From the NCBI GenBank assembly GCA_944372675.1, contig CALVZW010000004.1, forward strand, positions 1-34,415: a stretch of DNA of 34,415 bases, written 5' to 3'. The notes under the pieces are model-generated. The model ran no database searches. It saw only the letters and a list, made by a program, of their open reading frames with translations, and was not told where the DNA came from. This document shows positions 24,684 through 29,442 of the stretch, one piece after another. The translations under genes were made by a program, and so were the position numbers. Origin of the DNA: an uncultured Clostridia bacterium (GTDB lineage: Bacteria; Bacillota; Clostridia; Christensenellales; UBA1242). Every line of letters starts with the position of its first letter. Position 1 is the first letter of the stretch.

Positions 24684-25363
24684 CAGTTTTAACAAACTTT
24701 TTTTACGAATTTTTATGAATATAAAATAGCCCTTTTTTGACCATAAAAACGGATTGTTTATTACGCAATAAAATTTAAATAATTACCACTTAATGAACAA
24801 AAAAAATCTACATTTTTTACCCATTATCATACAATATATAACTAAAAAAACAATTGATATTTTTAAATAAAGTATGATAAAGCAAAAAATAATGAAACTA
24901 TAGAAAATGAAAAAAATTATAATCTACTTTTAAAACATACAATAACAAATAGTATACTAAATTATTAATGATAATAATAAATTTAAATTATAGTTAAATA
25001 AGTAAGATATAATAAAATAAAACATAAAATAATAAATAACATAACAATCATTACAAATGAGTTTTTAAATAAATTATTTTTATTCTACAATACATTATAC
25101 AAATCATTCACTACATTACATATATAAATATATAAATTTTAAATATTTTTAATAATGTAATATATAATATAACCTTATAATAATATATACTAATAATAAA
25201 ATATATAATTTAAAATATATTATAAAGATATATAAAATAGAGATATAAATTAAAAGATACATAAATAAAATTTAATCGTTATGCAAAAATAAAATTTAGT
25301 GGTTATGCAAAAAGTAGTTTTTACTTATAAAATATATAAGTATACATAATTGGGTATACAAAA
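24684..25363. other. AT-rich region without genes
   Basis: About 680 bases, almost all A and T, lie between the S10 promoter and the terminator of the surface protein gene. I see no open frame with a ribosome binding site, no RNA gene and no DnaA-box cluster. It holds a 9-bp inverted repeat (TTATCATAC at 24824-24832 and GTATGATAA at 24872-24880) and the 24-bp tandem repeat at 25265-25312. It may be a degraded gene or a spacer insulating the ribosomal promoter. Confidence 0.6.
25265..25312. repeat. Two tandem 24-bp repeats
   Basis: Units 25265-25288 and 25289-25312 are directly adjacent and agree at 22 of 24 positions. Both begin ATAAAATTTA and end GTTATGCAAAA. No third copy is seen. The contrast with the nearly pure A/T surroundings makes them stand out. 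Confidence 0.75.
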
Positions 25364-25385
25364 AAACAGACATAAAAGTCTGTTT
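25358..25385 (-). terminator. Terminator of the surface protein gene
   Basis: An 8-bp perfect stem (AAACAGAC at 25364-25371 with GTCTGTTT at 25378-25385) has a 6-base loop and is followed on the minus strand by Ts. It lies 65 bases after the stop codon at 25450. Confidence 0.85.
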
Positions 25386-25449
25386 TAATTTATAATTTAT
25401 TTTTTACAACTTTATGTAAATTAAATTTACTATTTCATTAAAAAGCATA

Positions 25450-27150
25450 CTAAATAATAATACCATTATTTCCTACAAAGCCTTGCAGTTTTATTGTAAT
25501 TGTGTCAACACTACTTAAATTAAATGTTATAACATTACCCCTATATGTAACATTATTTATAATATACTCAACATTTGTCGTGTAATATGTTGTTATCGTT
25601 ATTATATATGTTGTTGGAAGCATTGTAAGTACTATCGGTTGAGCCGTTGTTTGTGATACATATATTTGTTGCACATTTTGCCCTTTTTCATCACTCATAT
25701 TTAATATTGCACCAACATTTGTTTCAACATTTATGTTTAATTCCTTTGATTTGTCAAATGCTCTTAAATACGGATATCCATCATTAGTATTTTCGTCAAT
25801 TGCCCAAACTTCTGTAAAGTCCCAACCAGCATTTTGATATGTTTCTTGTTTTTTCATATCTTCTATTGAAGTTTGCGTTGCTCCGTCATAAGAGTAGGTA
25901 CAAATTCCTTGCAAAACAAATATTCCACTAACATTTGATATATTGCTGTTATAATCAAAAACTCTTTCAAATTTCCATCTATCCGTTACATCATTTCTTG
26001 CAACCACGTAACAATTTTCTACTCTTCCCTTATTAGAGCAAATTGCGTAACTTCGCCAAGCATCTAGGTCTGAAATTCTTACATAACAATCTTTAATTAC
26101 ACCTGTTTCATAATTTGTATTTACTAAACCACCAAAGAAATCACTTCCATCACCATAAGAATTGTCTGCTACTTTTGTTAAGTTTACATAACATTGAGTT
26201 ATAGTACCGTAATTACCCCACGCCAAAGAAGCACAATCAGCCATATAAAGTCCGTTAAGAATGCCTTCCACCCAACACGCACTCAATGTTCCCCCCTCAC
26301 ATAATACTGAAACTAATCCAGCTGATGCATTTGGTGCATCAAAATCAGTACTTACTTTTCCATCAAAATTAGTTTTAACCCCTAAGTTTTTAACATTTCC
26401 TGATACATAACCAAAAGTTATAAAACCTTGTAGTTGATCACTTGTAAAATTTATAAGATATAACCCGCCATCATAAGTACCAGTAAAATTATTAGAATAA
26501 CTACCTATTTTTGTCCAAGTGTCAGTTGTATATGTTATGTCTGCAGTTTGAATGTAACAAGCACTTAAAAAGTTTTCTTCAGTTTGATGATTTGATAAAT
26601 ACCTTAAGTTCATTGCCGATGCAATTATATATGGTTTTTCCGCACTTCCATCTCGACTAGCATCATTTAATCTAAAATCTATTTCTCCCCCAGTATCTTC
26701 TACTGCTTCCACTGCAATTAAATTATTTGATATGTTAACTTTATTATTAATACAACATACTAATGTTAAACTTAACACAAACACAAAAAGCCACGATAAA
26801 AGTAATATCGTAGATTGCACCACACTATGCTTACTTTGCACTTTTGTTTTTACATTACAAACTAAATTAGTATCATTACTTAATTTAACTAATTTATTAA
26901 ACATTTTATCTTTATTATTATTTTTGTAAGTTATTTTGATATTATCACAAAGTATGTTTTCATTATTTAGTTTTGTACTTTTTGTAGCATTACATTTTTT
27001 TTGTTCATATAAACTTACTTTTGTTATGCCACTTTGTAAGAATAAGTTGTTTTTTATTTTGCTTTCGCAAAGATTGTTATTGTTATTGGATGTAGATAGT
27101 AAACTATCTACCCCCCCCCCCCCTAGTATTTTATTCTTTTGTATTTTCAT
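25450..27150 (-). CDS. Predicted phase-variable cell-surface protein with a GLUG-like repeat region
   Basis: The function is unknown. The 566-residue product has a polar, Asn/Lys-rich N-terminal part (1-112), then one hydrophobic segment (about 113-134, STILLLSWLFVFVLSLTLVCC) and a large extracytoplasmic part. Residues 160-465 resemble GLUG-type beta-helical surface proteins: GSAEKPYIIASAMNLRYLSN, WTKIGSYSNNFTGTYDGG, several CYV repeats, and GWDFTEVWAIDENTNDGYPY as the closing motif. The last 100 residues look beta-rich. No LPxTG anchor is seen. Codons 10-14 contain a run of 13 Gs. In this frame they read Gly4-Val, and with 12 or 14 Gs a TAG follows at once. AGGAG lies nine bases before the ATG, with a promoter at 27180-27209 and a terminator at 25358-25385, so the gene stands alone. 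A later in-frame ATG (residue 83) has no clear ribosome binding site. Confidence 0.75.
   Translation of the reverse strand: MKIQKNKILGGGGVDSLLSTSNNNNNLCESKIKNNLFLQSGITKVSLYEQKKCNATKSTKLNNENILCDNIKITYKNNNKDKMFNKLVKLSNDTNLVCNVKTKVQSKHSVVQSTILLLSWLFVFVLSLTLVCCINNKVNISNNLIAVEAVEDTGGEIDFRLNDASRDGSAEKPYIIASAMNLRYLSNHQTEENFLSACYIQTADITYTTDTWTKIGSYSNNFTGTYDGGLYLINFTSDQLQGFITFGYVSGNVKNLGVKTNFDGKVSTDFDAPNASAGLVSVLCEGGTLSACWVEGILNGLYMADCASLAWGNYGTITQCYVNLTKVADNSYGDGSDFFGGLVNTNYETGVIKDCYVRISDLDAWRSYAICSNKGRVENCYVVARNDVTDRWKFERVFDYNSNISNVSGIFVLQGICTYSYDGATQTSIEDMKKQETYQNAGWDFTEVWAIDENTNDGYPYLRAFDKSKELNINVETNVGAILNMSDEKGQNVQQIYVSQTTAQPIVLTMLPTTYIITITTYYTTNVEYIINNVTYRGNVITFNLSSVDTITIKLQGFVGNNGIII
27092..27123 (-). 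repeat. G13 homopolymer tract with adjoining hairpin (predicted phase-variation switch)
   Basis: On the plus strand 13 Cs run from 27111 to 27123, giving 13 Gs in the coding strand, 27 bases after the A of the ATG. Directly downstream in the coding sense lies a 9-bp inverted repeat with a 2-base loop (27092-27111, GTAGATAGT/ACTATCTAC). The run is extreme for this AT-rich DNA. The base count comes from the assembly and may be uncertain by one or two. Confidence 0.85.
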
Positions 27151-27179
27151 AATTTTGCACTCCTTTTCTAGTCATTATT

Positions 27180-27209
27180 AGTATATCACAATTAAAACTT
27201 TTTAGTCAA
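27180..27209 (-). promoter_or_regulatory. Promoter of the phase-variable surface protein gene
   Basis: On the minus strand there is TTGACT (27204-27209), an 18-base spacer and TATACT (27180-27185). AGGAG at 27160-27164 follows, nine bases from the ATG. The architecture is the same as at 70-99, so the two genes should be expressed alike. Confidence 0.75.
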
Positions 27210-27372: not shown

Positions 27373-28098
27373 TTATAATACCTTTTCACTAAAAATTTTC
27401 CTTATCATTTCAATATTAGAATTAGCATTAGTACTGTTTATTATTAATTTTTGCGGACATAATTTAACTAATACTGCTATTAAGTCGCCAATATCACTTT
27501 TATTTTGGCTAAAACTTTGAAAACTTAATTCGTTGTTGTTATATATTTTTATACCTTTTTCTTCAAAACAAACTTTCAATATTTTTGATTTATTCTGTTG
27601 ATTTTTTACTAAATAACAAAGTAAATCAATAACTGCTGTTGATTTATCAAAGCATTGTATATTATCATTAGTCAAATTTGCAATCATTTGCCAACGCTGT
27701 ATTAATCCTTGCAGTTTAAAATATAAAAATGGTATTACTGATATTTTATTAATTGTATAATCTGCATCCAAAGAAATGTCTTTATCTGTAAATGTGTCAA
27801 ATGATGCAATTGCACATATGTAGGCAGGTACAAACATTCTTTCAATTCCATTTAAATTTATATGATGTTCTAAATAATATTTTTTGTATCTATTAATATA
27901 AAAATCACTTAAACTATGTGCAACAATATTATTTAATTTTGACATATGTTCATCTTCGCAAGCAAACATAAGAGAATATGTGTCATCATTTTCATAATCT
28001 GCAACTATTTTACATAAATTCGATTTTTTTAACTGATTTTTAAGTCCTGCAAAATCATATTTAAACTTAATATCAACATCAATTTGTTTTTCTTTCAT
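27373..28098 (-). CDS. YtxC-like putative sporulation protein
   Basis: The 241-residue product resembles the YtxC family, whose members are sporulation-associated in Bacillus but of unknown biochemical role. The C-terminal half fits best. VIDLLCYLVKNQQNKSKILK is followed by a glycine turn (EEKGIKIYNN), DIGDLIAVLVKLCPQKLIIN and IEMIRKIFSEKV, the family's closing pattern. The middle has SLSDFYINRYKKYYLEHHIN and ISVIPFLYFKLQGLIQRW. No signal peptide or membrane segment is seen. Its position right after spoIVB supports a sporulation link. AAAGGG precedes the ATG. The assignment is from pattern memory, so the symbol is left empty. Confidence 0.62.
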   Translation of the reverse strand: MKEKQIDVDIKFKYDFAGLKNQLKKSNLCKIVADYENDDTYSLMFACEDEHMSKLNNIVAHSLSDFYINRYKKYYLEHHINLNGIERMFVPAYICAIASFDTFTDKDISLDADYTINKISVIPFLYFKLQGLIQRWQMIANLTNDNIQCFDKSTAVIDLLCYLVKNQQNKSKILKVCFEEKGIKIYNNNELSFQSFSQNKSDIGDLIAVLVKLCPQKLIINSTNANSNIEMIRKIFSEKVL

Positions 28099-28245
28099 TT
28101 TCTACCCTTTCATATTTTTAATTTTATAATTTATTTTAAAATTTAATTTTGAATTTATTTTTTATGTTTTTGTTGTTTTTATTTTTCCGCTATATTATTT
28201 TTTATAATAATTTAATATGTTAAAAATTTACTCTTTTAAATTTAA

Positions 28246-29442
28246 TTAACTATTTTCAAGCATTAAATCTAAATAAACACCAAAACCCTTCGTAGCATCA
28301 TTTAAAAATACATGAGTTACTGCACCTATTAATCTTCCATTTTGTATGATAGGACTACCACTCATACCTTGAATAATACCACCAGTTCTTTGTATTAAAT
28401 CTTTATCGGTAACTTTAAATACTAAAGATTTGTTTGAATTTTTACCTTTGTAACTTGTTTTGATTATATCGATGTCAAATTCTTCAATATTTTTTCCGTC
28501 TAAACTACATAAAATTGTTGCTTTGCCTGCTTTTGCTGTATTGCGTCCGCCAATTTTTACTTTTTTACAATATTGCAACATATCATTTGTAGTCTTTCCA
28601 AATATACCAAAATTAGTATTTTTACTAACACTCCCTAACGAATTTTGCGACTGAACAAATATTCCCCGCATTTGTCCTGCTTGTCCCCTACTGCCTTTTT
28701 CAATGGATAAAACAGAACATTTATAAATTTGTCCATCAAACACATCCATTATTGCCCCAGTGTCAATATCGCTTATTGGATGCCCTAATGCACCAAACTC
28801 AAGTGTATCACTTTTTACATAAGTCATTGTACCAATTCCACTTGCATCATCTCTTACCCAAAGTCCAAGTTTATATGTTTGACTTTCCATATCTAATTTT
28901 GGTTTAATTGTTGTGTAATACACTTTGCCATCTCTTTTGTATTTTGCAACAAGTTCTTTACCTTTATATTGTTCATCATTTATTATTTTTGATACACTAT
29001 CAGCAGTTTCAACATATTCACCTTCAATCTCGCAAATGATATCGCCAACATTAATATTTGAACAAATAATTTCTTTTCCGTTTTTAGTAATAATTGGATT
29101 TTGCCCAATAACGACTACGCCCTTTGATTGTAACGCAACGCCCACAGTTTTACCGCAAGCATAAATTTCATCATTTTCAACTTTGTAAACATCAATATTT
29201 TTTACATTTATTCCAAAATATTTAATTTGCAACTGCCCTTTTGAAAAATTTGTTGCAGTTGCAGTTGTATCATTGCTAGGAATATATTTTGCACTTAACA
29301 AACCTTTTTTGTGAAATTTACTAATATCATAATTTACTATCATTGAATTAGGTAATGAATCATTAACAATAATAGGTACTAATGCTAACATACACACAAA
29401 AAAACAGACAAAAGTGCCTATTAGATACTTTATAAATTTCAA
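28246..29442 (-). CDS. spoIVB: SpoIVB-type sporulation serine peptidase (S55 family), TTG start
   Basis: SpoIVB is made in the forespore and crosses into the space between the two membranes. There it cuts SpoIVFA and so activates the SpoIVFB-dependent processing of pro-sigma-K. The 398-residue product has an N-terminal membrane anchor (residues about 5-27) and a PDZ domain (about 105-180, with NVGDIICEIEGEYV). The peptidase domain follows, with H221 (FGALGHPISD), D346 (KVTDKDL) and S361 (GMSGSPIIQNG), matching the known triad in order and spacing. The ending GAVTHVFLNDATKGFGVY is typical. The start codon is TTG, supported by AGGAG seven bases upstream and by the family's length. The usual neighbours recN and spo0A are not adjacent. 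Confidence 0.93.
   Translation of the reverse strand: MKFIKYLIGTFVCFFVCMLALVPIIVNDSLPNSMIVNYDISKFHKKGLLSAKYIPSNDTTATATNFSKGQLQIKYFGINVKNIDVYKVENDEIYACGKTVGVALQSKGVVVIGQNPIITKNGKEIICSNINVGDIICEIEGEYVETADSVSKIINDEQYKGKELVAKYKRDGKVYYTTIKPKLDMESQTYKLGLWVRDDASGIGTMTYVKSDTLEFGALGHPISDIDTGAIMDVFDGQIYKCSVLSIEKGSRGQAGQMRGIFVQSQNSLGSVSKNTNFGIFGKTTNDMLQYCKKVKIGGRNTAKAGKATILCSLDGKNIEEFDIDIIKTSYKGKNSNKSLVFKVTDKDLIQRTGGIIQGMSGSPIIQNGRLIGAVTHVFLNDATKGFGVYLDLMLENS

Follow-up and report, generated by a model that had tools for sequence, protein, structure and literature searches.

The window analysed here, a 34,415-nucleotide contig from the genome of an uncultured Clostridia bacterium, appears to carry a translational phase-variation (contingency) locus, at which slipped-strand events in a poly-G tract would switch one member of a combinatorial surface-protein repertoire; we give this reading a probability of roughly 0.9. 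The tract is a run of 13 G on the minus strand (27111..27123; 13 C on the plus strand) that makes up codons 10-13 and extends one base into codon 14 of a 566-codon gene (25450..27150, minus strand), predicted from its open reading frame and translation to encode a membrane-anchored surface protein of a phase-variable family. Direct reading bears out the preliminary description, which had reported 13 Gs in codons 10-14 with the frame open for 566 codons and had held that loss or gain of one G stops the gene: when tract length was varied in silico, 12 G led to a stop after 13 codons and 14 G to a stop after 15 codons, while 13 G left the frame open. The gene is ON as assembled, a call that is provisional since assembled homopolymer lengths can err by one. 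For independent bases at 30.9% GC, a G or C run of at least 13 is expected about 8e-6 times in the window, and in dinucleotide shuffles even an 8-G run averages only 0.04. The homopolymer lies far beyond chance length, and a change of one unit alters the predicted expression of the gene.

A promoter-like site precedes the gene and a terminator-like stem-loop follows it, in agreement with the earlier claim that it has its own promoter and terminator. The former (27180..27209, minus strand) consists of TTGACT and TATACT separated by 18 nt, with an extended TG, and contains the TGTGATATACTA stretch common to most copies of the family; the latter lies 3' of the gene (25363..25386, minus strand). 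A ribosome-binding site, AGGAG (27160..27164, minus strand), was recognized by pattern match and by its conservation across copies, and is followed by the ATG start codon (27148..27150, minus strand), 27 nt before the tract; most copies keep both the ATG and the ribosome-binding site before it. The tract might have been suspected of lying before the true start; the conservation of ribosome-binding site and ATG upstream of it, in paralogues as well as in sister species, answers this worry. Directly 3' of the tract lies an inverted repeat, GTAGATAG-TTTA-CTATCTAC (27092..27111, minus strand), seen in the sequence, in its predicted fold and in a genus-wide enrichment of stems, and the last G of the tract is part of its stem. 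The hairpin described earlier does therefore touch the tract, but its stem has 8 bp around a 4-nt loop, and 9 bp would be reached only with a 2-nt loop. Further into the protein, a hydrophobicity scan predicts a membrane-spanning helix at about residues 114-133 (26752..26811, minus strand), after a low-complexity N-terminal tail.

The window also contains spoIVB and ytxC, and the order is ytxC, then the phase-variable gene, then the S10 ribosomal operon, placing the locus at a rearrangement junction. Conserved synteny was considered and rejected: judged by eye from translation and bases, relatives carry infC-rpmI-rplT, not S10, after spoIVB-ytxC, so that there is no orthologous tract for comparison. 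For window positions 27373-29442, the corresponding loci of two sister species (L206 and L207) have infC-rpmI-rplT-like genes following spoIVB-ytxC.

The same design is repeated throughout the genome. The assembly (1.2145 Mb in 116 contigs, the window being contig C4) is AT-rich and has 33 tracts of at least 9 G in its 1.21 Mb, representing 29 distinct contexts, of which 24 have a ribosome-binding site and an ATG shortly upstream and 5 lack a clean start. The common layout is a ribosome-binding site, ATG, 19-27 nt and G12-16, usually followed by a short inverted repeat. Most of the 24 share a leader in which the TGTGATATACTA promoter region is followed by AAAGGAGTGC, by ATG AAA ATA CAA AAG AAT AAA ATG CTA, by G12-16 and then by TAGATAGnnnnCTATCTA and ACATCCAATAACAA, after which the bodies diverge. 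Among copies with near-identical flanks, tract length differs. Copies also share blocks, as in contig C93, which matches residues 11-132 of the window protein at 77%, meaning that recombination between copies happens. About 30 on/off switches, the window tract among them, would thus be present in this small genome. The poly-G ON/OFF reading put forward in the preliminary description gains support from these comparisons, and the description is right about the locus; what does not stand is the picture of a solitary switch inferred from one locus, which understated the case, since the gene is a member of a multigene family and one switch within a genome-wide and family-wide system.

The frames behind the tracts follow the same logic across the genus. 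We scored a copy when, with the tract varied by one, one frame stayed open for at least 60 codons and the other two stopped within 40 codons, mostly 12-20. Among the scorable copies from five species, 15 of 53 are ON and 38 of 53 are OFF by a one-base shift, which does not differ from one third ON (p=0.47), the share expected if tract length drifts freely. Lengths among related copies range from 9 to 17. Behind the shift in OFF copies lies a long frame, often of hundreds of codons and up to more than 600 within the bases examined, which fits switching genes and not decaying ones. Single ON/OFF calls are provisional, as a length may be off by one, but the overall pattern is insensitive to such errors. 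Every one of the five genus genomes has tracts (8-33 each), and the design recurs in all four other species, the leader before the poly-G being particular to each genome, such as ATGTTACAAGAGATGAAAAATGCTA for G002 or ATGTTTAATTTTAATAAAAAGGTA for G004. In a set of 147 genomes, the pattern RGGAG-ATG-polyG gave many matches in all four of the genus genomes included and was hardly found outside the genus, with G168 as the main exception; the reversed-pattern control gave 1 match in the 147. Per-genome counts of this pattern are inflated by overlapping matches and are not gene numbers.

The encoded proteins form a family. The window protein has about 20 matches in its own genome, itself included, and its paralogues bear GLUG and Listeria-Bacteroides (InlB B-type) repeats, several of them passing the PF07581 (GLUG) cut-off. 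The window protein itself gave no Pfam or NCBIfam match, PF07581 included, though it can be aligned to family members, and a structure model of its residues 146-566 made without an alignment had a mean pLDDT of 37 and was unusable. In a hydrophobicity scan, most family members show a single strong hydrophobic helix 20-200 residues past the tract; in the general layout, GLUG or Listeria-Bacteroides repeats come after this membrane helix. A surface location for the window protein is suggested by its relatives and by its membrane helix. In G002, one poly-G-led gene (L140:3-1835, minus strand) has a C-terminal Hint/intein-like domain whose scores are below the Pfam cut-offs.

We propose that slipped-strand mispairing during replication would add or remove single Gs in the tract, so that 13 G, or a number differing from it by a multiple of 3, would keep the gene in frame and yield the protein, while at other lengths translation would stop within about 15 codons. 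With roughly 30 copies switching independently, most of them alike from the promoter and ribosome-binding site through the start to the poly-G leader, yet coding for different membrane-anchored repeat proteins, a clonal population would be expected to display many combinations of surface proteins. The scheme presumes that tract mutation in living cells is fast and reversible and that the encoded proteins reach the cell surface; the variation would presumably serve evasion of phage, immunity or competitors.

One may ask whether the tracts are real, given that two-colour Illumina chemistry, for instance, can call spurious poly-G and that sequencing or assembly could have created the runs. Some tracts do sit at contig ends with garbled neighbours, and contig-end runs in G072 and G084 look suspicious. 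Of the 33 tracts in the window's own genome, 19 are no more than 300 nt from the end of a contig, where 1.9 would be expected; 15 are no more than 100 nt away (0.6 expected), and these 15 are on contigs C5, C7, C18, C24, C28, C41, C45, C53, C54, C67, C84, C88, C89, C92 and C106, often beside A-rich garbled sequence. The window tract, however, is internal to its 34-kb contig, with coherent sequence on either side, and different species and independent assemblies agree in where the tract is placed, after an ATG or between the two promoter boxes, with reversed-pattern controls near zero; an artefact is therefore very improbable. Enrichment at contig ends is what would be expected if mixtures of lengths or slippage made the tracts hard to assemble, although the repetition of the leader, or noisy sequencing past a poly-G run, may also have caused breaks, and assemblies of such genomes are probably broken systematically at phase-variable loci. 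The ends of contigs C28 and C7 overlap and agree over 62 nucleotides upstream, but carry 13 and 14 G; this hints at mixed lengths and no more, as the C28 tail has other mismatches and read noise may account for the difference. Loss of mismatch repair was rejected as a source of hypermutability, since MutS and MutL domains are both present in the genome. Slippage in such tracts is known in repair-proficient phase-variable species too. MutS_V matches number one in most genomes of the window's family (f1) and two in most genomes of the order's other families, which suggests that most f1 genomes have lost a further MutS-type gene, perhaps MutS2.

Real tracts could still be fixed leftovers, that is, an inherited leader whose length drifts only over evolutionary time, with the OFF copies serving as silent donors or decaying as pseudogenes. 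That many copies are OFF, that block sharing reveals recombination and that our comparisons are between paralogues and species only would all agree with this. Yet many OFF copies keep open frames of hundreds of codons, every copy with an intact leader retains its own promoter and ribosome-binding site, and poly-G tracts of 12-16 have lengths at which instability is known from phase-variable bacteria, so that we regard such a history as improbable. Barely less improbable is that tract and hairpin act mainly as a ribosomal frameshift site, the hairpin holding the ribosome on GGG codons, where it slips, so that expression would be leaky or set at a ratio whatever the length, with DNA slippage being secondary. 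The adjacent stems speak for this: in 25 dissimilar tract contexts, which may share ancestry, stems of at least 6 bp follow 52% of tract sites against 9% of control sites (three 40-nt stretches further downstream), with differing sequences, and when the best stem beginning no more than 12 nt from the tract is taken, its mean length is 5.36 bp against 3.96 bp in controls (Wilcoxon p=0.002). The window hairpin also folds slightly better as RNA than its shuffles (-13.3 kcal/mol over 96 nt, z -1.96), and the spacing that a 13-nt tract gives the hairpin would suit stimulation of frameshifting. On the other hand, the stems tend to be short and AT-rich, a clear stem is missing from about half of the contexts and the stems of G002 are mostly of 4 bp; moreover, frameshifting alone leaves unexplained why most copies are out of frame and why poly-G occurs in promoters of other genera.

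The sequences of the stems beside the tracts vary (TAGTTC/GAACTA, AGTAGT/ACTACT, TTCTAGTG/CACTAGAA), a pattern that points to selection on base pairing, even though about half of the contexts show no clear stem and some may be related by descent. We do not claim strict covariation: in the window's own genome, the shared stem has only one clear compensated variant (TAAATAGT/ACTATTTA), and several other variants are broken. The preliminary description had suggested that the hairpin promotes slippage, and this is kept here as a hypothesis. Tentatively, and at rather low odds, the inverted repeat could be a working part of the switch, its pairing rather than its sequence being kept beside poly-G in divergent gene families and either raising slippage through replication stalling or letting OFF genes leak through ribosomal frameshifting. 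We know of no described contingency locus with such a two-part slippage module of tract and inverted repeat, and this is the sole mechanistic part of the system that is possibly new.

Returning to the slipped-strand reading, poly-G tracts in the wider family also occupy a second position, between the -35 and -10 boxes of promoters; a pattern search matched this arrangement in 59 of the 147 family genomes, representing 22 of the 38 genera (one match for the reversed-pattern control). Examples from other genera are TTGACAAAAATGC-G9-TAAAAT and TTGACAATCGGCT-G9-TAGAAT; in G096, 8 of 10 tracts are so placed, and in G134, 11 of 13, with about 0.6 expected in each from shuffled flanks. Some of the genes behind promoter-spacer tracts likewise look exported. 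The family thus appears to use poly-G for both translational and transcriptional switching, the window's genus mainly for the translational kind. Long near-perfect palindromes follow directly after poly-G promoter tracts in G134 (L224, L227, L228 and L229), with RNA folds of -19 to -22 kcal/mol; their stem sequences differ yet pair, as in TAAAATGACCTTGCA...TGCAAGGTCATTTTA, and they are possibly small mobile or regulatory elements. Tracts of at least 9 G are present in 231 of 297 family genomes (maximum 46 in one). Within the order, families f14, f15, f20, f24 and f29 are also tract-rich, with up to 48 per genome, and others have almost none, which suggests an order-wide habit with gains and losses. 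Five genomes of families f29, f24 and f20 (G324, G372, G383, G356 and G390) have 34-48 poly-G tracts each. In a class-wide sample outside the order, genomes mostly have 0-2 tracts, with exceptions such as f41 and f71. The named relatives are metagenome-assembled genomes of uncultured Clostridia or Eubacteriales.

Compared with known systems, the organization seems closest to that of Neisseria opa and the repeat type closest to Campylobacter. Surface proteins are encoded there by a multigene family, opa, whose frames are shifted by CTCTT pentamers within the part coding for the signal peptide. As in opa, every copy here carries a simple repeat of its own close to the start, which would give combinatorial expression; unlike opa, the repeat is a poly-G after codon 9, the proteins form an unrelated family with GLUG/InlB repeats, the host belongs to the Clostridia and an inverted repeat is often adjacent. 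Campylobacter jejuni has a phasome of many poly-G/C tracts in diverse surface-modification genes (PMC6321876). The two share an AT-rich genome, many poly-G tracts and predicted control of surface features by translational frame shifts, but here most tracts sit in one leader cassette joined to variable bodies. Repeat tracts in promoters have precedents too: that of Neisseria porA changes transcription. In Helicobacter sabA the promoter tract likewise changes transcription, and a further tract lies in the coding region (PMC2715451). Here, promoter tracts of that kind are a feature of other genera in the family and are absent from the window locus. The examples of phase variation in Clostridioides difficile given in a review rely on site-specific promoter inversion (PMC11868660); phase variation in Clostridia is shared with our case, but here homopolymer slippage is proposed.

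In the literature searched, outside of which lay most subscription papers and all preprints, we found no report of poly-G phase variation in Clostridia or Christensenellales, and while the mechanism is known, the lineage and the scale appear new. According to a recent review (PMC11868660), genomes with multiple phase-variable loci seem confined to pathogens, a question that it calls open, and a family of uncultured small-genome Clostridia with tracts in both coding and promoter positions bears directly on it. For these bacteria themselves, the system predicts strong diversity of the surface from cell to cell in a group that is uncultured.
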